A stretch of DNA of 29,926 nucleotides from a virus. The notes under the pieces were generated by a model, which worked only from the letters and a program-made list of their open reading frames with translations, made no database searches and was not told the DNA's origin. Made by a program: the position numbers and the translations under genes. Of the stretch, positions 2,383 to 20,302 are shown piece after piece. Numbering within the stretch: the stretch's first letter is position 1; each line of letters opens with the position of its first letter. The stretch lies in IMG/VR virus record IMGVR_UViG_3300024262_000170, positions 1 through 29,926 of that record, one strand, 5' to 3'.

Positions 2383-3090
2383 ATGTCTTTTTGTGATGAT
2401 ATTGATGTATTGACTAATCTAAATATGTCAGCAACCGAAGTGCCTACTTTATTATTGGCTAAGGCTATTATTAAAGCTGATGCAGAAGTAAGGGCAGCTT
2501 TTTCGTCTGATATGTTGGCTGCCCTTGATGTCTTTGGTGAGAAGGATGAATCGATAACTACTGCAGAAGTCGAGATTACCGAAGATAAAATTACCGTAGA
2601 TATCGATATTCCTACCGGGGCAAGGATTCAATTTAAGACTACTGATAAATTGCCCGATCCTTTGGTAGCAGATATCGTATATTATGCCATACGTTTGGAT
2701 TCTACTCATATAAAAGTGGCTATCAGGAAAGACGATGCAATATCCGGTATTCAAATAGATATAACCGATCAAGGGACAGGAACGCATACAATTAAACGAT
2801 TATTCCCGGCTATCGTAGAATCTTTAACTGAGGATATTGCCTCTTATTATGTAATGCGGGGCCTGTATTCAGGGAAATCACCGAGCATAAATACCTGGAT
2901 CGATAAATATAAAGACGCAAAAGAGACCCTTAAAGATATTGCCGAAGGTAGGAAACAGATTGAAGGTATTACCATAGACGTGGGGGCAATTCAATCTACT
3001 ACAAAAGACTATAAACGGACCTTCGATGAAAGGGATGAAACTAATTGGAAAACTGATCCTAATAAATTAGAGGATCTGGCCGATGACTAA
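2383..3090 (+). CDS. Head-tail connector (gp6/DUF1320-like) with inserted beta domain
   Basis: Residues 1-50 (VLTNLNMSATEVPTLLLAKA) and 140-235 (helical, SLTEDIASYYVMRGL, ending in a D/E-rich tail) are those of a small helical head-completion or adaptor protein, normally ~130-150 residues. Residues ~60-138 interrupt it with a strand-rich domain (DPLVADIVYYAIR, then GIQIDITDQGTGTHTIKRL). That phrase is characteristic of small beta-sandwich modules seen in phage tail and fibre proteins. The gene lies between the capsid and gpG-like genes and overlaps the latter by 8 nt. The connector role is inferred mainly from position and fold type. AGGGAG precedes the ATG. Confidence 0.7.
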   Translation: MSFCDDIDVLTNLNMSATEVPTLLLAKAIIKADAEVRAAFSSDMLAALDVFGEKDESITTAEVEITEDKITVDIDIPTGARIQFKTTDKLPDPLVADIVYYAIRLDSTHIKVAIRKDDAISGIQIDITDQGTGTHTIKRLFPAIVESLTEDIASYYVMRGLYSGKSPSINTWIDKYKDAKETLKDIAEGRKQIEGITIDVGAIQSTTKDYKRTFDERDETNWKTDPNKLEDLADD

Positions 3091-3640
3091 TGGAGCATTA
3101 ATCAGTTATGAGATTAAAAACGACGAGAAGGTAAAGGCTCTATTAAAAAAAGCCGGGAATAAAGCTAAAGATCTTAGGATTCCTTTAAAACGGTGCGGTA
3201 TTTTAATGCTTAGATCTATTGATAAAAACTTTAGAGCAGAGGGCAGGCCTAAAAGGTGGGCTCCACTTTCCCCTATGACTATAGCTATGCGGAGAAAAGA
3301 AGGAAAAGGAGCGAAGATCCTGCAGGATACCGGACATGGAAAAGGCTCTATTGTCTATAAAGTAGTATCTAATCAGAAAGCACAGATCGGAACTAATCTT
3401 GGTTATATGAAAATACACCAGGAAGGCGGGTCAATTAAGATACCGGCCAGGGATATTTACCCGGTAAAAGCGAAGGCTTTACATTTTGTTATCGGTGGAG
3501 AAGATATATTTGTTAAACACGTTCACCAGAAGGCAAGAATAGTCAAGATACCACAAAGGAAATTTTTGCTCTTCCAGGAAGAGGATAAAAAGAATATAGT
3601 TAAAGTTTTTACTGAATATTTAGAGGAGATAACCAGATGA
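3083..3640 (+). CDS. Virion morphogenesis / tail completion protein (Mu gpG-like)
   Basis: The 185-residue basic protein belongs to the phage virion morphogenesis family (Mu gpG). Typical marks are SIDKNFRAEGRPKRWAPLSP near residue 50, ILQDTGHGKGSIVYKV near 90, and the C-terminal PQRKFLLFQEED followed by a helix. These proteins act at the head-tail junction during tail completion. The start overlaps the connector gene by 8 nt and the end overlaps the next gene by 4 nt (ATGA), consistent with translational coupling. Confidence 0.85.
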   Translation: MTNGALISYEIKNDEKVKALLKKAGNKAKDLRIPLKRCGILMLRSIDKNFRAEGRPKRWAPLSPMTIAMRRKEGKGAKILQDTGHGKGSIVYKVVSNQKAQIGTNLGYMKIHQEGGSIKIPARDIYPVKAKALHFVIGGEDIFVKHVHQKARIVKIPQRKFLLFQEEDKKNIVKVFTEYLEEITR

Positions 3641-4098: not shown

Positions 4099-4287
4099 AT
4101 GTTATTAAAATATAATCGTAATAGCGAATTGGAAGTAGTCGGATTAGGAACTTTCAAGCCTAATGAATTCGTAGTAACTGATGATGAAGCAAAGGCAAAA
4201 AAATATTTAGACTCCGGCTATTTTGATTTAGTCAAAGAGAAAAAGAGAAAAGTTAAAAAATCTAAAAAGAAAGGAGTTGACAAATAA
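4099..4287 (+). CDS. Small basic protein before the tail tube gene
   Basis: The 62-residue protein has a short folded N-terminal part (LLKYNRNSELEVVGLGTFKP) and a strongly basic C-terminus (KEKKRKVKKSKKKGVDK). Small proteins at this position occur in Mu-like and other phages, often as accessory tail proteins of unknown role. AGAGGGTG lies upstream of the ATG, and its TAA overlaps the ATG of the tube gene. The basic tail suggests nucleic acid or acidic-surface binding, but this is only inference. Confidence 0.6.
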   Translation: MLLKYNRNSELEVVGLGTFKPNEFVVTDDEAKAKKYLDSGYFDLVKEKKRKVKKSKKKGVDK

Positions 4288-5795
4288 TGCCACAAGGAAA
4301 CAGAGGATTTATAGGAATTAAAAAAGAGGTTAAATGGAAAACAAGAGTAGATGGTGTTAACGATGTTTATTTACCTTTTGTATCTGAAGGTTTAACCAGG
4401 GATATTGAGGATGTTATAAGCGCTATACAAAGAGGGATACTTGATGAGCCAAAATCCTACCAGGGCGAAAAAGCCTTTGGGGGTCCTTTGGTGGTAGAAG
4501 TGCATCCGTTGAGTATCGGTCATATATTTAGAAGTGCTTTAGGTGCTCCCTCTGATGGCGGGTTTGCCGATTTTACCGAGACCGAGATATGTGATTGTGA
4601 AACAGAATGGGATTCTGTTGATACAACTATAACCAGCTTGGATTCTGTTGATAAGAAAAAAGGTTCATATTCGTCTAAAATACAAGTTACTAAGGGGCAT
4701 GTTACTACCAATGTTATAGCCTCTGCTGTAATAGTTGAACGTGATTTAGTTGGGCCTCCGGCTGTTACTCAATATAAGTTCTGGTTAAAGTGTGATAAAG
4801 TTACTGCTGATGGTAATTTAAAGTTTAGAATTAGTGAAGATGAACTCGGTGGGGCTACAGGGACCCATGACGACGTAGATATTCCAGCGATGCTTGTAGC
4901 GGGAGTTTGGACAGAGCATACCATTAATATAGTTAACATAGCTGAAATGGATAAAGCAATTAGTATTGCTTTAATAATGGAAGACGAGATGGATGAATTT
5001 GCAGTCCGGATTGATGATGTTAAGGTAGTAGTTGCTGGTGAAGCTACCAAAGCCTATAAGCATATATTTACCCCAATGCAGACCTTAGCTGAAGAATTTG
5101 GTGCAGGTCAAAAGGATACTCCATTATGGCCTTATACTCTGGAAGTATTCCGAGATGAAAGTAATAAATCTTATCAGTTCTTAGGCTGTGTGGTTAATAC
5201 TCTTGGTTTGAGTTTTTCCATTACCGATAAAATCTTAAAAGCTAATCTGGGAATTATTGCTGGGAATGCTGGTTATGTAGATCCAAAGACTGGAAACTCA
5301 CTTGAAGCCACTAATCCATTTGTCTGGTCCGATGCCAAGATTTATTTGGGTTTAAAAGCTACAACTTTAGTTGAGGATGATAGATATAATGATTTAGAAA
5401 GTTTTACTCTAAACTGGGATAATAAGTGTGTAGCTAAATATGCCTTAAATAATACGGCCACACCTAGAAAGATAATTAGAACCGGTTATAGGGAAATACC
5501 TGTTAGCTTTACGGTGGACTTTACCGATAAAACTGAATATGATTTATTCCTTGCTGGAACTGAACGGCAGATGATAATTAAATTTGAAGGCGCAGTTATT
5601 ACGGGTGATGCCGCTTCAACTAAATTTAGCTTACAGTTCGATATACCTTTACTTAGATATTTAGCATGGCCTATTGGTATAAGCGGTCCGGGAAGGATAT
5701 CCGTTGCGGTTACCGGAAAGGCAAAGTATAGCTCTACTTACGCACTTTTAGTTACTTTGATTGATGATCAACCGCATACTATATATGCAGGTTAA
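4287..5795 (+). CDS. Tail tube protein with inserted carbohydrate-binding-like domain
   Basis: Residues 1-98 and 255-502 form a siphovirus tail tube protein: GGPLVVEVHPLSIGHIFRSA, then KHIFTPMQTL, LEVFRDESNKSYQFLGCVVN and TLGLSFSITDKILKANLG. Residues ~100-252 are extra and sit in one loop of the tube fold. The insert starts ETEWDSVDTTITSLDSVDKK, is strand-rich, and ends DEFAVRIDDVKVV, which is the usual closing strand of jelly-roll carbohydrate-binding modules. The 502-residue length exceeds a plain tube protein by about this insert. Each copy along the tail could display one such domain. The start ATG follows AAAGGAG. Confidence 0.8.
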   Translation: MPQGNRGFIGIKKEVKWKTRVDGVNDVYLPFVSEGLTRDIEDVISAIQRGILDEPKSYQGEKAFGGPLVVEVHPLSIGHIFRSALGAPSDGGFADFTETEICDCETEWDSVDTTITSLDSVDKKKGSYSSKIQVTKGHVTTNVIASAVIVERDLVGPPAVTQYKFWLKCDKVTADGNLKFRISEDELGGATGTHDDVDIPAMLVAGVWTEHTINIVNIAEMDKAISIALIMEDEMDEFAVRIDDVKVVVAGEATKAYKHIFTPMQTLAEEFGAGQKDTPLWPYTLEVFRDESNKSYQFLGCVVNTLGLSFSITDKILKANLGIIAGNAGYVDPKTGNSLEATNPFVWSDAKIYLGLKATTLVEDDRYNDLESFTLNWDNKCVAKYALNNTATPRKIIRTGYREIPVSFTVDFTDKTEYDLFLAGTERQMIIKFEGAVITGDAASTKFSLQFDIPLLRYLAWPIGISGPGRISVAVTGKAKYSSTYALLVTLIDDQPHTIYAG

Positions 5796-6477: not shown

Positions 6478-9087
6478 TTGGCTGATATTTGGATTAATAT
6501 TTTAGGTGACGCTTCAAAATTAAAAGGTGAATTAGATAAATCCAGCAAGAATGTAACTAGCTTTACTGAAAAGGTAGGTAAGATCGGTAAAATTGCCACC
6601 GTTGCTGGGACTGCAGTTACCGCTGCTTTTACTGCTATTGTCTTGAAAACTGCCTCGGTTGGTGATCAATTCGATAAGATGAGCCTCCGAACTGGAGTCG
6701 CAGTCGAAGATCTTTCTTCTCTGGCCTATACTGCAAGTATTTGTGGTACTGATGTAACTACTCTCGAAAATTCACTTAGATTTTTAGCAAAAGGCATAAA
6801 AGAAACTTCGGATGGAACAGGAATAGCTAAGGATGCTTTTGAGGAATTAGGTATATCTGTTATAGATATCGAAGGCAATTTAAGGCCTACGGTTGACGTA
6901 ATGAAAGAGGCAGCTACGAAATTAGCAGCAATGGATGATGAAACCCGAAAAGTAGCTCTGGCCGGTGAAATATTTGGATCAAGATATGGTTCTCAATTAT
7001 TACCGATGCTAAAAATTGGTGGTGAAGGTATTGAGGAATTGATGGAAAAAGCTAAAGAGCTGGGTATAACTATAACCACCGAAGCAGCCACCGCAGCAGC
7101 CGAATTTACCGATAGGATGACCGATTTAAAAGGATCTTTTGCTGGTGCGGGAAGGATGATTGGAGATACCTTGATCCCGGCCATTACTCCCCTAATAGAA
7201 AAAGCTACTGAAATGGTAGTCAAAATTAAAGAGTGGGCTGAAGAAAATACTCCATTGGTTGAAGGAATACTCAAATGGGGAGCTGGTTTAGGTATAGCTT
7301 TAATGGTGCTCGGACCAATAGCGGTAATATTGCCAAGTCTAATTACTGGAGTTACGTTATTATCGGGGGCTTTTTTACCTTTTGCGGTTACTGCAGGTAT
7401 AGTTATAGGGTTTAAGAAATTATCGGAATATATTAAGGAAACAAGAGAAGAAGCCTATAAACTTAAGTTAGGTCTTGCTGATATGGCTTTAGCAGATATT
7501 GATAGAGAAATAGATGGACTTGCTGTCAGGGCAAATGAATTGCAATTAGCAATGAGCGAAATTGATTGGGATACTGAAGATGCAATGGCCGCTACTATCT
7601 ATTACAAACAATATGCAGCCGAGCTGGTTGATATAAATAGAAAACTGGGCATCCTCTATAAAACAAGGGAAGAACTTACAAAGGCTGAAAAAGAGGGGAT
7701 TGATGTAACCGAAGAAAAGCTAAAATTAGATGAAGAAGCCAAAAAACTAATGGATGAACTGACTCAGAAAGAGACAGAACAGCAAAAAGCATTGGAAGAA
7801 AAAACAAAAGCTGCAGAACTTGCAAATGCTCAAACAGAAATTGAAAATAAACTGTTTGACCTAGAGCATAACGATTATGAAGTGGCTGAAAGGGAATTGT
7901 ATTCATTGGCAGAGGCCTATCGTAAAAAGGGAGTAGATCAAGAAGTTGTAAATAAATGGATTGAGTTAGAAATTAAAAGACTAAAAGAAGTAAATGAAGA
8001 AATTGGCAAAAATAAAGATATTATGGAAGAGGTGGCAAGGGTTACAAAGGCAGTAGAAGATAGATTTTTTGAATTAACAAAACTTCCTTATGAAGTAAAA
8101 ATAAAAAATATAAATGAGAAATATGATGACTATATAAAAGTAATAAAAAAATCAGAATTAAGTACAGATGAACAAAGAGAAGCAATAGAACGAATGAACG
8201 AAGTAAGAAATAAAGAGATAGAAGGGATAGATAAAACTACCGAGGCAGAAAAGACTTTAAAAGAGACTACTAAAGATGTTACAGACAGGACACTTGAATT
8301 AACCGATTCAGTAGCTTATGATATCCTAAAACTTGATGAGCAAAGAGAGATGTTTGAAAAGGCTGGGGTTGCTGCAGAACTAATTACTTTATGGTATAAG
8401 AAAGCAAGAGAAGCATTAGAGGAGCCTCCTAATATAAGCCCCTGGGAAACATTTTTTAATAGATTAAAAGATAAGTTTAAGGATACATTTGAAACAACGA
8501 TGCAGGCTGGCATATTAAATGTTATAGATGCTTCCCAAAATGCCCTCGCTGATGCTTTTTATAATATATTATCTGGAACTGAAACTCTCGGAGAATCCAT
8601 GAAAGGACTTTTTCAAAGTATAGTAGATACTGTTATTAAGGAGTTGGCTCGGCTTGCAGCCTTTTATGTATTTAAATGGATCTTCGGAGTTCCAACTATT
8701 CCAATTATTGGTGGCATAGGCTATCATCAATTAGGTGGAGAAGTAAAAAGGTTTCAAATAGGCGGTGGAACTGATAGTATTATTGCTGCAGTAACTCCAG
8801 GCGAATATATAATCGATAAGCCCATGACCGACTTCATTAAGAGATTTAAGATGTTCCCTTCTAATTTAATCGATGCTATTGCCGGGGGATTTCCTACCCC
8901 TGCCCCTGCTTTTGCCGGCGGTGGCCCAGTGGGTATTTCGAGTATTACCGCACAGGGTTTTGGAGAAACCAAAATAAATATTGACATTCATGATAACAGG
9001 ATTGCCAGTGATGTAGATATTAAGAGATTGGCGGTAACCATAAGTGATGAAGTATTGAGAAAGATAGAATTAAAGAGGAGACACTAA
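6478..9087 (+). CDS. Tail tape measure protein
   Basis: The 869-residue protein starts with TTG, 9 nt after GGGGGTG, directly behind the chaperone frameshift stop. The N-terminus (LGDASKLKGELDKSSKNV) and KMSLRTGVAVEDLSSLAYTA are typical of the phage tape measure family. Residues ~265-310 are hydrophobic, ~330-610 are a long coiled coil, and ~690-745 (ISGTETLGESM-type region, then FYVFKWIFG) are the usual C-terminal hydrophobic part. It sets tail length and may form part of the DNA channel. At about 0.15 nm per residue it predicts a tail near 130 nm. Peptidase or lysozyme motifs were not seen. Confidence 0.9.
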   Translation: MADIWINILGDASKLKGELDKSSKNVTSFTEKVGKIGKIATVAGTAVTAAFTAIVLKTASVGDQFDKMSLRTGVAVEDLSSLAYTASICGTDVTTLENSLRFLAKGIKETSDGTGIAKDAFEELGISVIDIEGNLRPTVDVMKEAATKLAAMDDETRKVALAGEIFGSRYGSQLLPMLKIGGEGIEELMEKAKELGITITTEAATAAAEFTDRMTDLKGSFAGAGRMIGDTLIPAITPLIEKATEMVVKIKEWAEENTPLVEGILKWGAGLGIALMVLGPIAVILPSLITGVTLLSGAFLPFAVTAGIVIGFKKLSEYIKETREEAYKLKLGLADMALADIDREIDGLAVRANELQLAMSEIDWDTEDAMAATIYYKQYAAELVDINRKLGILYKTREELTKAEKEGIDVTEEKLKLDEEAKKLMDELTQKETEQQKALEEKTKAAELANAQTEIENKLFDLEHNDYEVAERELYSLAEAYRKKGVDQEVVNKWIELEIKRLKEVNEEIGKNKDIMEEVARVTKAVEDRFFELTKLPYEVKIKNINEKYDDYIKVIKKSELSTDEQREAIERMNEVRNKEIEGIDKTTEAEKTLKETTKDVTDRTLELTDSVAYDILKLDEQREMFEKAGVAAELITLWYKKAREALEEPPNISPWETFFNRLKDKFKDTFETTMQAGILNVIDASQNALADAFYNILSGTETLGESMKGLFQSIVDTVIKELARLAAFYVFKWIFGVPTIPIIGGIGYHQLGGEVKRFQIGGGTDSIIAAVTPGEYIIDKPMTDFIKRFKMFPSNLIDAIAGGFPTPAPAFAGGGPVGISSITAQGFGETKINIDIHDNRIASDVDIKRLAVTISDEVLRKIELKRRH

Positions 9088-9088
9088 A

Positions 9089-11839
9089 TTGGGTATATCG
9101 GTTAAAATCGGTGGGGTGGATAAAACTGAATATGTGGATGCCCGGACCCTTAGCATAAGAGATGAGCTAACCAGCAAGGTTAATTCTGCCTCCTTTGACT
9201 TTATCTGTAATGATGTAGCTGTTGCCCCTATTCCCGGGGAAGAAGTTTTAATTGAGGAAGGCACTAAAAAATTATTTTCAGGTAGGATCTTATCTAAAGA
9301 AGAAAGTTTTTTGCCTCCTAATCTCTTAAAATATCCAGTTGAATGTATAGATCACACGCGGGATCTTGATAAGCGGTTGGTGGCAGAACACTACGTAAAT
9401 CAAAAAGCTGGAGATATCATAAAAGATATAATTACTAAATATACTGCTATTGAATCCTGGATGTCACCTATCGGCCACTGGGATGAACATGATAAATGGG
9501 AATCTGAAACTAATGCCTATGATGATGATGATTCTACTTATGCTTCTACTCTAATTCCACCAAACCTATGGGGGTCCTATCTCCATTTATTTATATCAGG
9601 AATTACTTGTACTAAAGTTCGTTTCAAAGCAGGTATTCCATCTGGCATATCTGCAATATTTCTTCATGTTCGGTATGAGAAGGTCTGGCATTGGATATAT
9701 GCTGGGTCTTTCAAAGACTGGCCCGCCTGGAACGAAATATCTCTAAATGGATTTTATCCTGTAACGGTAGCAGCGGTAACATTTCAAAATTCGAGCGATG
9801 AAGAAGCGATTGCCCACTTTCATGAATTTGATTTTGGCGTAGCTATCCCTGACTTCACCACTAATAATGTAGCTGATGGTCCTATCATAAGTGATATATC
9901 TTTTGATTATATTCAAGTTTCAGATGCTATAACTAAAATAGCCGAGATTTGTGGTTATGAATGGTATGTGGATTATGACAAAGATATCCATTTTTTTGCT
10001 AAAAATACTTATCCGGCACCTTTTCAATTAGATGATAATCAGGCAGACTATAAAGACTTAATAATTAATACTAATATATCTCAAATAAGGAATAGGATTT
10101 TTGTAAAAAGCTCAAACATAAAAGATTTTATGGGAGAAGCTTTTGTTGCAGATGGCGTAAGTAGTGAATGGAATTGTATGTTTAAGGCTGAGAATTTACC
10201 GTTAACCTTCTTAACAAGCAACTTTCCCTTAGGTGCCACAGCTACAAAAATACAATTCTCACATAATGATGTTTATTTAGCCGTTGGTTATACAAAATAT
10301 CATTGTTTAAAAGTGTGGAAAAGGGAAGGTGACGAGTTTACTGCCTTATCATTCTTTAGTGTAACACCAGATACCGATGTTTTTGCAGTGGCTTGGTCAA
10401 GTGATGATATATATTTAGCGGCTGCTTACAATGCTGGAAGTAAGATAAGAGTATGGAAACGAGATAATGATCAGTTTACTGCCTTACCTGCATTTGCTGA
10501 TTTACCAGCAGGGATTGCAAATGATGTTCAATTTTCCCCAGATGACACCTATTTGGCTGCTGTTAATGACGGCACTCCTTATATAATTATATATAAAAGA
10601 GCTGGGGATATTTTTACTAAACTAAGTAACCCAGCCGACTTACCTGCTGGAAATGGTAATGGTGTAGGATGGTCACCCGATGGTGTATATTTAGCAGTGG
10701 CACATGATGTCAGTCCTTTTGTTACAATCTATAAACGTGATGGGGATACTTTTACCAAATTAGGCAATCCTGCTAACTTACCTACCGGAAACGGAAATAG
10801 CATATCCTGGTCACCAAATGGAATATATTTAGCAGTAGCGCATGCTGTTACACCTTTCATTACAATATATAAAAGGGATGGGGATACATTTACTAAAATG
10901 GCTGATCCTGATTATTTACCCACTGGGGATGCTAATGATGTAGATTTTTCTGCTGATGGAATGCAATTAGCTGTAGGACATAACACTACACCCTTCTTAA
11001 CAGTTTACAAACACACTGTAGACCTATTTATTAAACAAGATGACCCAGAAGATTTACCTGCTGCCAGGGTTATTGGAGTTGACTTTTCTTCTTCAGGCAT
11101 ATATTTAGCTGTAGGATATGAAACTTTCCAATATTTAACAGTATATATACAACATCTTCCTACTATAACGGTGGATGGAGTGATTAAGACAATCGGTTGG
11201 GATGGGGTAGACAACCCGCTTTATTATGATTTTATGTTAAATGGAACTACAAAGGCATTGTCTCTTGGAACTAACACCTCTACCCCTGCGAATGGGGTTG
11301 AGTTATTGGTTGGTTATTATTCTATTGGAGTACCAATTTGTCTTAAAAGAGATGATCAAGATTCTATAGATAGTGTTAAAGCCATTGAAGGGGGGGATGG
11401 CATCTTTGAATTTTGTATAACTGATAATAATATTGACAATATAGCCTGGGCTAGTGAAGTAGCCAAAGCCGATTTATTACAGAATGCCAATCCTGTTGTT
11501 AATGCCACTTTTATAACTAATAGAAGTGATATTAAGAGCGGTCAGATAATAACCTTGAATTCTACAAAGAGAAACATTAATCAGCAATTTATAGTACAGA
11601 AAATAGAATTAATTCGGGTTGATGTAATTGAGTATTATGGTACTGCCGAAGTTCCTTATAAACCGGCTGCTGAAGCAGTGATAGGCTATAAACCGGCTGC
11701 TGAAGCCGAAGTACCTTATAAACTTGCTGATTCAGGTGGAGAGATTATATATTATGTTTTCAATGTTACTATCGCTAATAAGTTTAGAAAATTAGAAGAT
11801 CTGTTTCTTTATTTATTAAGTCGTAGTGAAGAAAGTTAA
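9089..11839 (+). CDS. Baseplate hub/tail protein with jelly-roll and seven-bladed propeller inserts
   Basis: The protein has 916 residues and a TTG start after AAGAGGAG. Residues 1-120 (DELTSKVNSASFDFICND, then PGEEVLIEEGTKKLFSGRIL) and 265-365 (IQVSDAITKIAEICGYEWYV) look like a phage tail hub protein, resumed at 690-880 (PTITVDGVIKTIGWDGVDNP, FITNRSDIKSGQIITLNSTK). Two extra domains interrupt it. Residues ~124-251 are strand-rich and aromatic, resembling a jelly roll. Residues ~370-690 are seven copies of a ~46-residue repeat with consensus (F/W)SPDGxYLAVAH...PFxTIYKRDGDTFTKL, i.e. WD40-like blades. The C-terminus has a tandem EVPYKPAAEA repeat. The hub probably sits at the tail tip, and the inserts are candidates for host binding. 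Confidence 0.8.
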   Translation: MGISVKIGGVDKTEYVDARTLSIRDELTSKVNSASFDFICNDVAVAPIPGEEVLIEEGTKKLFSGRILSKEESFLPPNLLKYPVECIDHTRDLDKRLVAEHYVNQKAGDIIKDIITKYTAIESWMSPIGHWDEHDKWESETNAYDDDDSTYASTLIPPNLWGSYLHLFISGITCTKVRFKAGIPSGISAIFLHVRYEKVWHWIYAGSFKDWPAWNEISLNGFYPVTVAAVTFQNSSDEEAIAHFHEFDFGVAIPDFTTNNVADGPIISDISFDYIQVSDAITKIAEICGYEWYVDYDKDIHFFAKNTYPAPFQLDDNQADYKDLIINTNISQIRNRIFVKSSNIKDFMGEAFVADGVSSEWNCMFKAENLPLTFLTSNFPLGATATKIQFSHNDVYLAVGYTKYHCLKVWKREGDEFTALSFFSVTPDTDVFAVAWSSDDIYLAAAYNAGSKIRVWKRDNDQFTALPAFADLPAGIANDVQFSPDDTYLAAVNDGTPYIIIYKRAGDIFTKLSNPADLPAGNGNGVGWSPDGVYLAVAHDVSPFVTIYKRDGDTFTKLGNPANLPTGNGNSISWSPNGIYLAVAHAVTPFITIYKRDGDTFTKMADPDYLPTGDANDVDFSADGMQLAVGHNTTPFLTVYKHTVDLFIKQDDPEDLPAARVIGVDFSSSGIYLAVGYETFQYLTVYIQHLPTITVDGVIKTIGWDGVDNPLYYDFMLNGTTKALSLGTNTSTPANGVELLVGYYSIGVPICLKRDDQDSIDSVKAIEGGDGIFEFCITDNNIDNIAWASEVAKADLLQNANPVVNATFITNRSDIKSGQIITLNSTKRNINQQFIVQKIELIRVDVIEYYGTAEVPYKPAAEAVIGYKPAAEAEVPYKLADSGGEIIYYVFNVTIANKFRKLEDLFLYLLSRSEES
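11657..11706 (+). repeat. 30-bp tandem repeat in the hub gene
   Basis: TATAAACCGGCTGCTGAAGC occurs exactly at 11657-11676 and 11687-11706, a 30-bp period, with a degenerate third copy from about 11717. It encodes the repeated YKPAAEA motif and preserves the frame. The near-identity of the first two copies suggests recent slippage or duplication. Confidence 0.85.
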
Positions 11840-11865: not shown

Positions 11866-12924
11866 ATGTTAAAAAATAAATTATGGTTAGGGATAATCTT
11901 ATCGATTATCTTCCTGGTATTTAGCATAAATGGCCTTACCGCGTATTACAAATATACCCAGGAATCCGGTACTAATTTCTATGTGGGTACCGCTGATAAA
12001 GCCGATGCCCTGGAAGATTCCAATGAGGTTAGGCAAATCCTCGATGATCTGGGGAATTTATTAGGCCATTCTAAAAGAGATGATCTATATCCTAAAAACG
12101 GTACTACCGGGGGCTATTTAGGCCGGTTAAATTATGGAGTAGATGCCTCTAAACCTGCTGTTCCGGTGGTAAATGATATGTATTTAGCTACCGATACGGT
12201 TGAAATTTACCGGTGTTTTGTGGCCGGGAACTGGGTTAAAGTTTATCCGGGGGCAGGTGGAATTACTACATTTTTGGAATTGACCGATACCCCGGCCTCT
12301 TATACTGGAAAAGAGGCGGAGATACTTCGGGTAAATACTTCTGCTAATGTTGTAGAATTTTCAGGTATAACTATTGAAACTACTTTAACGGTTGATTCTA
12401 ACTATGAGATACCTACCTCTCAAGCGGTAAATACTTTTTGCGAAACCACTAAAGACTATATGCAGAATTTAGAAGATGATCCTTCCCCTGATTTGGGTGA
12501 TAATTTAAGATTAAATGAAAAAAATATTTATATTGATGCTGCTTTATCAAGCGATCATACCTATTCAGGTTTATTGGATTATCAGGTTGTCGGTGAATCG
12601 GTAGTTTTTGGGGATCTATTATATTTTGATTGGACTACCAAAAGATGGAAAAAAGCCGATACAGATTTAGCAGTTAATATGCCGGGATTGAGAATTGCCC
12701 TTGAGTCCGTATCCGATGGTCAAGTCTGTAATATGTTAGTTATGGGCTATATCCGGGATGACGACTGGGATTTTACCGGAGCAATGATTTATGCCAGTGC
12801 CACTGCAGGGGCTATGACTTCTACCGCCCCTTCTACCACTGGCCAGCAGGTTCAAAGGGTAGGACAAGCTAAATCTGCCGATATTCTATTTTTTGACCCA
12901 AGTATAGACGTAGGAGAGATTTAA
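11866..12924 (+). CDS. Secreted tail-fibre-like protein
   Basis: The 352-residue protein opens with a clear Sec signal or membrane anchor (LWLGIILSIIFLVFSINGL, likely cleaved after LTA). Residues ~140-175 carry FLELTDTPASYTGKEAEILR, a phrase found in tail fibre and other phage structural proteins. The C-terminus (YIRDDDWDFTGAMIYASATA, then TGQQVQRVGQAKSADILFFD) is typical of phage fibre or decoration modules. It directly follows the hub gene with AAAGGAG before the ATG. A signal peptide on a virion fibre is unusual, because virions assemble in the cytoplasm. It may instead be surface-displayed on the lysogen or infected cell. Confidence 0.7.
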   Translation: MLKNKLWLGIILSIIFLVFSINGLTAYYKYTQESGTNFYVGTADKADALEDSNEVRQILDDLGNLLGHSKRDDLYPKNGTTGGYLGRLNYGVDASKPAVPVVNDMYLATDTVEIYRCFVAGNWVKVYPGAGGITTFLELTDTPASYTGKEAEILRVNTSANVVEFSGITIETTLTVDSNYEIPTSQAVNTFCETTKDYMQNLEDDPSPDLGDNLRLNEKNIYIDAALSSDHTYSGLLDYQVVGESVVFGDLLYFDWTTKRWKKADTDLAVNMPGLRIALESVSDGQVCNMLVMGYIRDDDWDFTGAMIYASATAGAMTSTAPSTTGQQVQRVGQAKSADILFFDPSIDVGEI

Positions 12925-12926
12925 TT

Positions 12927-13514
12927 ATGAAAAAAATATTATTAATAATTGCTATCACACTTTGCATATTCCAGATGGTGGTTTTGGCTACTGCAATTGA
13001 TATAGGAATGCCAGCGATAGACAGAAATGCTTATGTTAACGACAAAACACTTATTAACAAAGGTAATCCTGCAAATGCAGACGGAAAGATTACAGATGTA
13101 GAAATTTATGCAGTATATGAAGATTTAACAGATTGTTACGTTGCAACTTTTTATCGTCCAGACCCTTCGGGATTTCCCAATAATTTTACTGCCCGTGACC
13201 GTTTTTACCTTGGAACTGTGGCAGAGGGATATTCGAGCCGTGAAGTCGACCTTGATGTACATACTGGTGATTATTTAGGAATATGGGTTTCTAATGATGG
13301 TTATATAGAAAATACCTCAGCTGGAGAAAGTGGAGTTTGGAGCTGCACAGGTAACGCAACTAATGTTACAGATTATACTTTTGATTGGAATTATACCGAT
13401 GATGCTATAAGTCTTTATGGAACAGGTGAGACAGTTGCAGGCATTAAATGGAATGGCGTAACGATTACTAAATGGAATGGTCAAGTGATTACAAAATGGA
13501 ACGGGTTAGAGTAG
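12927..13514 (+). CDS. Secreted beta-domain protein with WNG repeats
   Basis: The 195-residue protein has a signal peptide (residues 1-23, ending VVLATA). Residues ~37-165 form a strand-rich domain with the marks NKGNPANADGKITDVEIYA and VHTGDYLGIWVSNDGYI. The same domain forms the C-terminal part of the lipoprotein at 14707-15729. Residues 172-195 are three short repeats of (I)TKWNG(V/Q), a type seen at the ends of phage tail and surface proteins. It lies 2 nt after the preceding gene. Its specific function is not recognised; cell-surface or ligand binding is inferred from the domain type and secretion signal. Confidence 0.65.
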   Translation: MKKILLIIAITLCIFQMVVLATAIDIGMPAIDRNAYVNDKTLINKGNPANADGKITDVEIYAVYEDLTDCYVATFYRPDPSGFPNNFTARDRFYLGTVAEGYSSREVDLDVHTGDYLGIWVSNDGYIENTSAGESGVWSCTGNATNVTDYTFDWNYTDDAISLYGTGETVAGIKWNGVTITKWNGQVITKWNGLE

Positions 13515-13645: not shown

Positions 13646-14071
13646 ATGAAAAGGAAAGTATTGTTATTAGTTTCTATTATTTTTTTAATTTTAACATTAA
13701 CGAGTTGCGAGATGCTTCCGCCAGGGAATCCTGATTGGACTGAAGAGGATACAATAGAGGAATTAGTTGATTATTATTGGTATGCGATCTCTCAAGGTTG
13801 GTATAGATTAGCCAAAGGTTGTTGTATTCCAGATGGGGATGCTTATAATATAGTCGGGGAATATGAAGCCATTTTATATCCATTATCTTCAACCCTTGAA
13901 TTTGTTATTTGTTACAATAAAATCGAGATAATGGAAAACGATGCTACTGTAAATCTTGATCTTACTATAATTAATACTTCTGGTTATGGGGATAGTTATT
14001 TAGCTGAAGAAGAGACATTATATAATTACATTATGTATCTGGTCAAACCCAAAACTTGGAAGCTCAAATAA
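13646..14071 (+). CDS. Lipoprotein, first of a tandem pair
   Basis: The 141-residue protein has a type II signal peptide: basic start MKRK, hydrophobic core and lipobox LTSC with the lipidated Cys at residue 21. The mature part contains a helix-loop pattern, VDYYWYAISQGWYRLAKGCC, shared with the next gene (YDYWQAIINRQYELAKYYCI). The layout suggests a small NTF2-like alpha/beta fold, but this is a guess. It has TTTAGGGGG upstream of the ATG. A 131-bp spacer separates it from the upstream gene, so it may begin its own transcript. It probably acts on the outer face of the host membrane. Confidence 0.65.
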   Translation: MKRKVLLLVSIIFLILTLTSCEMLPPGNPDWTEEDTIEELVDYYWYAISQGWYRLAKGCCIPDGDAYNIVGEYEAILYPLSSTLEFVICYNKIEIMENDATVNLDLTIINTSGYGDSYLAEEETLYNYIMYLVKPKTWKLK

Positions 14072-14607
14072 AATCTAAAAATTAAATAAATTTTATCTTG
14101 GGAGGGATAAAATGAAAAGAAAAGTTTTGTTATCGGTTTTGGTAATAATCTTGATTGTAGTATTAACCGGTTGTGGGACTGGTAATGGGATAATTCCTCC
14201 AGGGATACCTGAATGGATGAGGGCAGAAGAAGCGGTTTATGACTACTGGCAGGCAATTATTAATCGACAATATGAATTAGCTAAATACTATTGTATAACT
14301 GGTGGAATCTGGTATAATAAAGTTGATGAATGGGAGGAATACATAAATACTAATTCTGAGGGTGATGCCTCACTGATAATTTATCTCGATAAATTTTATA
14401 AACAAACCGAGGTAATCGGAGAGGATATTTACGATCCTGATATTAGATATGAGGCTATTGCGTATGTAAAAATTATTACTCACAAAAGACTTTTTGTTGA
14501 TTCTTATATAACGGATGTTGATATCTTTGAATATGAAACAGAGTTAATTAAGCAAAATTACCCACCTGGAGACTGGGAACTTAAATAGAATCTAAAAATT
14601 AAATAAA
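14072..14607 (+). repeat. Duplicated 3' flank of the lipoprotein pair
   Basis: The 19-nt sequence AATCTAAAAATTAAATAAA lies right after each lipoprotein gene, at 14072-14090 and 14589-14607. The two genes have diverged while these untranslated flanks have not, which suggests either a constrained role or a fairly recent duplication with conversion. Confidence 0.75.
14112..14588 (+). CDS. Lipoprotein, second of a tandem pair
   Basis: The 158-residue protein is a paralogue of its upstream neighbour. It has the same MKRKVLL start, lipobox LTGC (Cys 21), the PPG-P/IP-(D/E)W motif after the anchor, and the DYW-AI-YELAK-YC helix. It ends in W-ELK-stop as the neighbour ends in W-KLK-stop. The 19 nt after both stops are identical, so gene and flank were duplicated together. 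GGGAGGGAT precedes the ATG. A terminator follows at 14627-14677. No function is recognised. Confidence 0.65.
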   Translation: MKRKVLLSVLVIILIVVLTGCGTGNGIIPPGIPEWMRAEEAVYDYWQAIINRQYELAKYYCITGGIWYNKVDEWEEYINTNSEGDASLIIYLDKFYKQTEVIGEDIYDPDIRYEAIAYVKIITHKRLFVDSYITDVDIFEYETELIKQNYPPGDWELK

Positions 14608-14677: not shown

Positions 14678-14706
14678 ATTAAATAATGAAAGGAGGTGAA
14701 AAAATA

Positions 14707-15729
14707 ATGAAGAAATTAATAATAATTGGAGTTTTGATTTTGGCTTTAGTATGTTTAGGTGGTTGTGGAGGAGATATAACTCGTTTTTATTTTAACCTTA
14801 CGGGATGGAGTTCTGCTAATGCTACTTTTAATAATTGTATAGCAAGTTTAGATACCCCAGAGGAAATTTGTACGTATGGGATGGATAATTTCTTTTCCGA
14901 TGGCGACCAAATACCGCCTTATAGTCCTTATCAACAATGGTTATATGAAGATGGAGATTGTAATGACAGATCTACTTTTAATGTATATGCAGCTCATACA
15001 CACGGATACGAAGTCTATCAAATCCACGTAGAGAAAACAACGGCTGCTGGTAAAAAAGATGCTCACGCATTAGGTGTCTTTGTGGTAAATGGCAAACTAG
15101 ATTATTCAAGCCATGTGAGTTATTACCCAATTCAGGCGAGTTCCTTTCAGACGATTGTAAATCATTATCTATCCAGGATAGGAGAAACACTGAGATGGTG
15201 GCGTGCTATGGATTATAATTTGGATAAAGTAAGTGAATATAACATAACAAGAGCTATAGAAATGCACAGTCCTACTCCTAACCCAGATTATGTTGGAACA
15301 TTTATAGGAGAAGAAGCGAAAGAAAGAGGGTATGGTATGAATTACAATACTACATCCGTAAACAAAGGTAATCCAGCTTCATATTCAGGAGCAATCAGAC
15401 AAGTAATGCTCTATGCACAATCAGCTTTAGGTAATGTTCAAGTGGCAAGTTTTTATACAGTAGGTGTAAATCGTTTATCTACAAGAGACTATGAAACAAT
15501 TGGTTCTGTTAGTGCGGGTTATCATGAATACGATGTAAATATAACAGTTCATGCAGGTGATTATATAGGGATATATTATGGTGGTATAGCAGGTTATATT
15601 TGTAGGAGCAATGACGGTGATGGTATATGGGCTCGGGGTAGGGACGTTATCCCTTGTTCAGACGAAGAATTTACTCTTATAGAAGATTTTGTTATAAGCC
15701 TTGAAGGAATAGTAATCAGCCCACAATAA
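14707..15729 (+). CDS. Transglutaminase-like lipoprotein with shared C-terminal beta domain
   Basis: The start at 14707 is preferred because AGGAGGTG (14691-14698) precedes it; an ATG at 14686 would place that site inside the gene. The protein has 340 residues, with a lipobox LGGC (Cys 20). Residues ~48-150 form a transglutaminase-like papain-fold domain with Cys 85 in GDCNDRSTF, His 120 in AHALGVFV and a plausible third residue Asp 132. Residues ~212-335 share the NKGNPA...VHAGDYIGIY domain with the secreted protein at 12927-13514. The fold can cleave peptides or crosslink amines; which applies is unknown. It probably acts on the cell envelope of the host. Confidence 0.7.
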   Translation: MKKLIIIGVLILALVCLGGCGGDITRFYFNLTGWSSANATFNNCIASLDTPEEICTYGMDNFFSDGDQIPPYSPYQQWLYEDGDCNDRSTFNVYAAHTHGYEVYQIHVEKTTAAGKKDAHALGVFVVNGKLDYSSHVSYYPIQASSFQTIVNHYLSRIGETLRWWRAMDYNLDKVSEYNITRAIEMHSPTPNPDYVGTFIGEEAKERGYGMNYNTTSVNKGNPASYSGAIRQVMLYAQSALGNVQVASFYTVGVNRLSTRDYETIGSVSAGYHEYDVNITVHAGDYIGIYYGGIAGYICRSNDGDGIWARGRDVIPCSDEEFTLIEDFVISLEGIVISPQ

Positions 15730-19155: not shown

Positions 19156-19698
19156 ATGAAAAAGCTAACTGTGTTGGTGGCAGTTATATTGATTGCTGGT
19201 TTACTTACCGGTTGTTGGTTATTTCCTGAACCAGAAAAAACAATTACCATTAACTGGTTTGAAGATGCTATAAGATATCATCCTGACGGAGAAATAATCA
19301 TTGGTGGTATATGGTATAACGACCCTCTTGGCCCTGCAACATTGATCCAGGATGGTGAAGGCTGGTGTTTCGTTGATCCAAACGAATTCTTCAATTACAA
19401 CATGACCCCAGAAATGGAACTTGAAGGAATCGTATTTATCAAGGAAACAGGATTATTATCCGGATACGCTACATATACTTTATATGAATTAAAGACAGAA
19501 AATAATTTTGTAGGTCAGGTAGAAATAGTTGTTGATGAAGATGGAACCAGCGGTACAATGATCGGAACTTACACTCAATTTAAGTATGCTTTTGGAACTG
19601 AAGACGAAGTGAAAGAAAAATATTCAAAGGCCGTTGAGTGCGTAGATGAAGGTAAGTGGTTCGTACAATATACTGATTATACTACTTACCCACGTTAA
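19156..19698 (+). CDS. Lipoprotein of unknown function
   Basis: The 180-residue protein has a lipobox LTGC (Cys 20). The mature part is strand-rich and acidic (WFEDAIRYHPDGEIIIGGIW, then VGQVEIVVDEDGTSGTMIGT), suggesting a small beta-barrel or sandwich. It has no cysteines beyond the lipidated one and two in the mature domain (Cys in GWCFV and VECV). It has a very strong AAAGGAGGTG site and lies between hairpins C and D. It probably faces the outside of the host membrane. No family is recognised. Confidence 0.6.
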   Translation: MKKLTVLVAVILIAGLLTGCWLFPEPEKTITINWFEDAIRYHPDGEIIIGGIWYNDPLGPATLIQDGEGWCFVDPNEFFNYNMTPEMELEGIVFIKETGLLSGYATYTLYELKTENNFVGQVEIVVDEDGTSGTMIGTYTQFKYAFGTEDEVKEKYSKAVECVDEGKWFVQYTDYTTYPR

Positions 19699-19771: not shown

Positions 19772-20302
19772 ATGAAAAAAACACTTTTAATTATTAGTAT
19801 TCTATCAATAGTCTTATTTCTTACCGGTTGCGGGGTTTTCAATCTTAATGGCTGGATTTGGCCTGAAGATGATTTAGAGTTTGCTAAATTAATTAGTGAA
19901 TTAAATACCCCAGAATTAATAGGTAACTATATGCACAAGAACTTCAAATATGAAGCACACAAAATTTATGCACCTGACCCTTATACGTTATGGAAAACAG
20001 GTAAGGGAGATTGTAATGACTTCTCTACCTTTGGGCAATTTATGGCTTATAGGAATGGTATTGAAGCATATACAATATTGATATCATTCAAGGGTACTTT
20101 TTATAATCACATGATAGCAGTATATGTGGAAGATTATGGAAAATCTTTTACCGACAACCGAAGGTATCTTAATAATAATGGTTTTTACTTTAATTCATTT
20201 CGAGAAATTGTAGATTATGATACTGAGAACTACATAGGTTTAAGATGGACAAAATATATTGTCTATGACTATAACATGGAAAAAATAGAGGAAGGAGAAT
20301 AG
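19772..20302 (+). CDS. Transglutaminase-like lipoprotein, second copy
   Basis: The 176-residue protein has a lipobox LTGC (Cys 20). Residues ~38-150 are a transglutaminase-like papain-fold domain: LNTPELIGNYMHKNF, then GKGDCNDFSTFGQFMAYRNG with catalytic Cys 81, NHMIAVYVE with His 113, and SFTDNRR with Asp 128. It parallels the lipoprotein at 14707-15729 (GDCNDRSTF, His in AHALGVFV) but lacks that protein's C-terminal beta domain. It would act on the outside of the membrane. Substrate unknown; processing or crosslinking of envelope peptides or proteins is possible. AAAGGAGG precedes the ATG. Confidence 0.7.
   Translation: MKKTLLIISILSIVLFLTGCGVFNLNGWIWPEDDLEFAKLISELNTPELIGNYMHKNFKYEAHKIYAPDPYTLWKTGKGDCNDFSTFGQFMAYRNGIEAYTILISFKGTFYNHMIAVYVEDYGKSFTDNRRYLNNNGFYFNSFREIVDYDTENYIGLRWTKYIVYDYNMEKIEEGE

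Follow-up and report, generated by a model that had tools for sequence, protein, structure and literature searches.

Prediction of a seven-bladed WD40 propeller inserted into the tail hub protein of a tailed virus, and occurrence of the same module in other phage tail proteins

The window, i.e. the whole stretch of 29,926 nucleotides that was analysed, is a contig of a tailed virus in which head, tail, lysis and replication genes follow each other in this order. Since no sheath gene was found among the genes identified in the contig, the tail is probably non-contractile. Among bacterial and archaeal genomes, the search for a host yielded a single related hub, which is distant and belongs to a Gammaproteobacteria MAG (L027), and the capsid matches were scattered across many hosts. 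The features that are relevant to the hub protein and its genetic neighbourhood are as follows (related loci carry L numbers):

6-926, head maturation protease
1397-2323, major head protein
3083-3640, neck protein
4287-5795, tail tube
6478-9087, plus strand, tape-measure protein immediately 5' of the hub reading frame (PHROG tape-measure families, E down to 1e-44)
9089-11839, plus strand, tail hub protein with the propeller, 916 amino acids, TTG start, a single open frame
9449-9850, plus strand, insert 1, the first inserted hub domain, residues 121-254, predicted to be all-beta (model strands; presence and absence among relatives)
10127-10201, plus strand, first part of an anchor-like beta-sandwich, residues 347-371 (homologous to residues ~212-242 of the L006 hub)
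10202-11161, plus strand, predicted seven-bladed WD40 propeller, residues 372-691 (repeats, Pfam, AlphaFold2 model, superposition, blade HMM)
10202-10222, plus strand, predicted Velcro strand LTFLTSN, residues 372-378, completing blade 7 (model strand E372-375)
11162-11338, plus strand, rest of the anchor-like domain, approximately residues 692-750 (contiguous with residues 347-371 in L006, L034, L036 and L037)
11339-11839, plus strand, C-terminal hub part, ending without the FN3/lambda-J-like extension of the empty-site relatives
11866-12924, plus strand, tail-protein-like product of 352 amino acids encoded by the next gene 3' of the hub (phrog_11660 tail protein, E 1.5e-6)

The hub reading frame starts right after the tape-measure gene, the Pfam PhageMin_Tail match of which is below its cut-off, and the relatives keep this gene order. 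The gene at 11866-12924 is likewise conserved 3' of the hub in L006, L034, L028, L029 and L031. Further downstream, the signal peptides of five short genes (13646-14071, 14112-14588, 14686-15729, 19156-19698 and 19772-20302) end in a lipobox-like cysteine, with the motifs LTSC, LTGC, LGGC, LTGC and LTGC, respectively. This is an unusual number of lipoprotein-like products for one tail-to-lysis region; they possibly represent superinfection exclusion or surface proteins, and the product of 19772-20302 is transglutaminase-like.

The central part of the hub protein consists of seven repeats, each of exactly 46 residues, located within residues 372-691. A self-comparison of the hub with BLOSUM62 yielded scores of 659 at lag 46, 401 at lag 92 and 268 at lag 138, compared with a best score of -55 in the shuffled control (1000 shuffles, all lags). 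The spacing of the b-strands across the seven repeats is 46, 46, 46, 46, 46 and 46, a blade HMM detected seven copies in the hub reading frame, and the Pfam WD40 profile PF00400 matched with 36.8 bits (cut-off 27, E 4.8e-9). The seven repeats of about 46 residues that a sequence-only reading of the window had noticed are thus real, and the propeller was placed there at 10196-11158, which is roughly correct; the domain itself spans 10202-11161. The preceding stretch WNCMFKAENLP is hub sequence, although its final LP resembles the linkers of the repeats.

An AlphaFold2 model of the hub was built on an alignment of 14 sequences and reached a pLDDT of ~72-94 across the propeller; elsewhere, the values are low in much of the hub and the full-length model is weak (pTM 0.44). 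Model residues 371-690 were superposed on the designed seven-bladed protein 7big with Z 39.0 and an rmsd of 1.9 A over 286 of 286 residues, followed by the WD40 domain of Thermomonospora curvata (5yzv, Z 38.5) and CIAO1 (3fm0, Z 38.4), and the superposition spans the full length of solved closed seven-bladed WD40 structures (Z 35-39). Repeat 7 comprises strands a to c only; in place of a d strand of its own it uses LTFLTSN, with which the insert begins. According to the model, the seven blades, of four strands each, therefore form a ring that is closed in Velcro fashion, an arrangement that brings the ends of the ring together, as insertion into a loop requires. The structure prediction run on the proposed seven-bladed closed propeller accordingly showed neither fewer nor open blades, the match to closed seven-bladed structures extending from end to end.

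The identity of the protein carrying the propeller was deduced from relatives with empty insertion sites. Related viral hubs were found by means of a two-sequence hub alignment. The L006 hub is the same protein in uninterrupted form, with 68% identity over the compared positions, and L006, L034 and L036 encode hubs without the propeller and without insert 1, as does L037 as far as it is covered. Empty sites are also present in THSA-485A. The empty-site hubs run straight through the insertion point, as exemplified by the sequence CKYQANALPAPSLTLKGVAKTVGW. A search of the PDB with the hub-core sequence returned zero hits. The empty hub of L006 was predicted with moderate confidence overall (pLDDT 59.5), and Foldseek matched this model to the MuSo2 tail protein (3cdd, E 2e-9) and Mu gp44 (1wru, E 1e-7); further fold matches were VgrG proteins and the 80alpha Tal and, at lower significance, the T4 gp27-gp5 device. 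The best hub structures gave Z 8-10 in VIA against the N-terminal ~170 residues of this moderate-confidence model. On the basis of the predicted fold, the protein is identified as a tail-tip hub of the gp27/Tal/Mu gp44 type. The proposal that the propeller lies between two halves of an ordinary hub protein is hence supported with regard to the flanks, which belong to one hub, and needs correction with regard to the word ordinary, since a second inserted domain is present at residues 121-254.

The propeller interrupts a hairpin in a small beta-sandwich domain of anchor-like type. In the uninterrupted hub this domain corresponds to L006 residues 212-295, which match T7-type tail-fibre anchor domains and the anchor domain of CBA120 TSP4 with Z about 7-8 and an rmsd of mostly 2-3 A over about 65-75 residues. 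These Z values are near background, so that the assignment of the predicted domain as T7-fibre-anchor-like has the status of a lead, which gains weight from the uniform kind of matches.

Three inserts vary among the hub relatives, namely insert 1, the propeller and insert 3. Insert 1 is present in the hub of the window and in L016-L020 and absent from L006, L007-L013 and L034. Insert 3, of about 150 residues, occurs in L007-L017 as far as these cover the region and is absent from the hub of the window and from L018/L029. This insert (residues 727-883 of the L016 hub) is homologous to separate genes located 3' of the hub in the window, specifically to the secreted-looking gene 12927-13514 (48% identity, E 1.6e-34) and to the C-terminal part of the lipoprotein-like product of 14686-15729 (42%, E 3e-21). 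A search for the propeller insertion in other hub proteins, as suggested by the sequence-only reading, was successful: nine propeller hubs could be counted in addition to the empty-site relatives, and all nine contain seven blades according to a pattern count and the HMM (in L013 the pattern count misses one blade and the blade HMM finds all seven).

In the tree of the hub core, the propeller hubs are all located on one side of a single branch and the empty hubs on the other side, with a support of 100/100; the tree derived from the N-terminal 205 hub residues was unresolved. As one branch divides the two types, one event is sufficient to explain the distribution, and the sequence tree thus indicates that the propeller was gained or lost once in the hub family. 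The empty hubs have a C-terminal extension with FN3 domains and a region resembling lambda J (phrog_31 central tail fiber J, E 5e-13), and this extension is missing from the propeller hubs. A repeated replacement of the J-like fibre by the propeller was considered and rejected as a statistical claim, since the same single branch separates both types; the swap counts as one evolutionary change and not as a repeated correlation. An empty-type hub occurs in two open frames of 217 and 739 amino acids at positions 6001-8970 of L035, which may be due to a frameshift, a sequencing error or a small intervening element.

With respect to sequence divergence, comparisons with the window revealed ~50% identity in the propeller versus 70-89% in the surrounding hub. 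The dN/dS values are 0.15-0.32 in the propeller and mostly 0.02-0.17 in the hub around it. The divergence of insert 1 is faster still than that of the propeller (42% identity, dN/dS 0.24-0.71), and this insert may represent a second binding module. Positive selection was looked for by dN/dS and was not found, the ratio staying well below 1.

A search with part of the propeller detected 31 viral loci, many of which encode proteins other than hubs. In L046, the propeller lies inside a tail-collar-type domain. The protein SLPG_00037 of Salicola phage CGphi29 (L003 8383-10071) carries a 320-residue propeller insert within a collar-type fibre-tip domain, and the adjacent SLPG_00038 (L003 10075-10887), in which a Collar domain is recognised, is a paralogue with an empty site. 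This arrangement resembles that of the hub family in that the same module is inserted into a tail protein, with the difference that the scaffold is a tail-collar fibre-tip domain and not a hub. A tail fibre encoded by a Massilia plasmid consists of a Collar domain followed by the propeller, L055 combines a LamG fibre with the propeller, and a phrog_376 tail protein of L043 (4064-8158, E 1e-133), suspected to be a podovirus nozzle-type protein, is interrupted by two separate seven-bladed propellers. The blade HMM recognised seven blades in most non-hub carriers of the module and fourteen in the Manatee Spring phage protein; fourteen blades, twice seven, make up the free-standing protein L002 8743-10887 (MW202701). 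Exceptions are L065 and L067, in each of which just two blades are clear, and POR1 orf76, which is too diverged for counting. The presence of the module in several unrelated parts of phage tails makes a swappable host-recognition module its most likely nature. A more general view is put forward tentatively, as an idea of slightly less than even standing: a mobile WD40 cassette, with seven blades in almost all cases, would be shared among phages and repeatedly inserted into loops of unrelated scaffolds as a general-purpose host-recognition module.

Propellers in phage tails, predicted WD40 domains in phage-type receptor-binding proteins and the insertion of domains into hubs are already known. 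In the evolved Tal proteins of siphophages, carbohydrate-binding modules (CBMs) are inserted in the gp27-like domain of the hub (PMC7291167). Evolved Tal and Dit proteins share with the present hub a foreign binding domain in loops of a hub-level tail-tip protein that is optional between close relatives (PMC7291167), here absent from L006, L034, L036, L037 and THSA-485A; the inserts there are CBMs, whereas the largest insert here is a WD40 propeller in an anchor-like domain. For this reason, the hub was not classified as a strict evolved Tal and is regarded only as working like one. For the diffocin receptor-binding protein RtbM of C. difficile, which sets the killing spectrum, WD40 domains have been predicted, and WD40 folds also for a second putative tail fibre of phages phiMMP03 and CDKM15, for which the authors suggest S-layer recognition (PMC13324602). 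These proteins likewise combine a WD40 fold with a phage-type receptor-binding protein; likened to the hub by fold, they are large separate tail fibres and not hubs. The receptor-binding proteins of phi11 (gp45) and 80alpha contain a five-bladed propeller, in phi11 with a Velcro-type closing blade (PMC4901313, PMC7048315), and gp131C of PhiKZ has a seven-bladed one (PMC4901313). Common to these is a beta-propeller that is located at the tip of the tail or at the periphery of the baseplate and is thought to bind the host; they differ in that none is a WD40-type hub insert, and the phi11 propeller has five blades. The sequence-only reading had known of no described propeller of this kind in a phage hub. 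For hubs this holds provisionally, since in the open-access literature searched we found no description of a WD40 propeller inserted in a tail hub that has relatives with empty sites and shares its module with other scaffolds; it does not hold for tails in general, as propellers of tail adhesins and nozzles have been described.

A functional proposal can be based on what was computed, namely the fold, the number of blades, the site of insertion, the relatives with empty sites, the occurrence of the module in other tail scaffolds, and its single gain or loss in the hub family. The best reading of an optional, self-closed and faster-diverging domain that recurs at exposed sites of the tail is a module for host binding, and by analogy with the CBMs of evolved Tal and Dit proteins we consider it reasonably probable that the hub propeller is a decorating receptor-binding domain. 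The complete propeller of ~320 residues would sit in a surface hairpin of the anchor-like domain, and the pairing of its N- and C-terminal strands would allow the ring to be plugged into a loop while the hub is left undisturbed. Hubs with the gp27-type fold form trimers at the end of the tail, so that the tail tip would be surrounded by three propellers. Each would most probably recognise a structure of the host surface, such as the S-layer, another envelope protein or a glycan, and would thereby take over the adhesion role of the lambda-J-like C-terminal fibre of the propeller-less relatives.

Alternatively, the propeller might not bind a receptor directly and might offer other tail proteins a platform for docking, for example the product of 11866-12924 or other fibres. 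WD40 domains are typically protein-binding platforms, the domain hosting the propeller resembles the fibre-anchor domains of T7-type phages and the gene at 11866-12924 is conserved beside the hub. However, homologues of this gene also adjoin the propeller-less hubs of L006 and L034, which makes the downstream gene independent of the propeller, and the module is also found at fibre tips of unrelated phages, where further attachment is unexpected; docking is therefore rated as unlikely. Even less probable is a structural role like that of the channel-lining propellers in the podovirus nozzle proteins of T7 (gp12) and SU10. The core of the SU10 nozzle protein is indeed a seven-bladed propeller in a tail-end protein, yet the nozzle propellers constitute the protein core, line the channel and are not optional insertions (PMC9509320), whereas the propeller of the hub is an optional insert that evolves faster than the hub and is absent from 68%-identical hubs, the tail thus working without it. 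That the propeller is an enzyme acting on a host surface polysaccharide is highly improbable: polysaccharides are the target of many phage tail enzymes and the seven-bladed lactonase family PF10282 is weakly similar (19.8 bits, below the cut-off of 21.7), but the top sequence and structure matches were mostly non-enzymatic WD40 domains, and no family-wide conserved non-repeat residues hinting at a catalytic set were seen.

The significance of the propeller lies in the use of a self-closing ring as a loop insertion in the hub, along with its reuse across unrelated tail proteins. The module also provides a testable handle on tail proteins that are now annotated merely as 'hypothetical' or 'WD40 repeat'. 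If the proposal is true, phages could change their binding target without rebuilding the tail.
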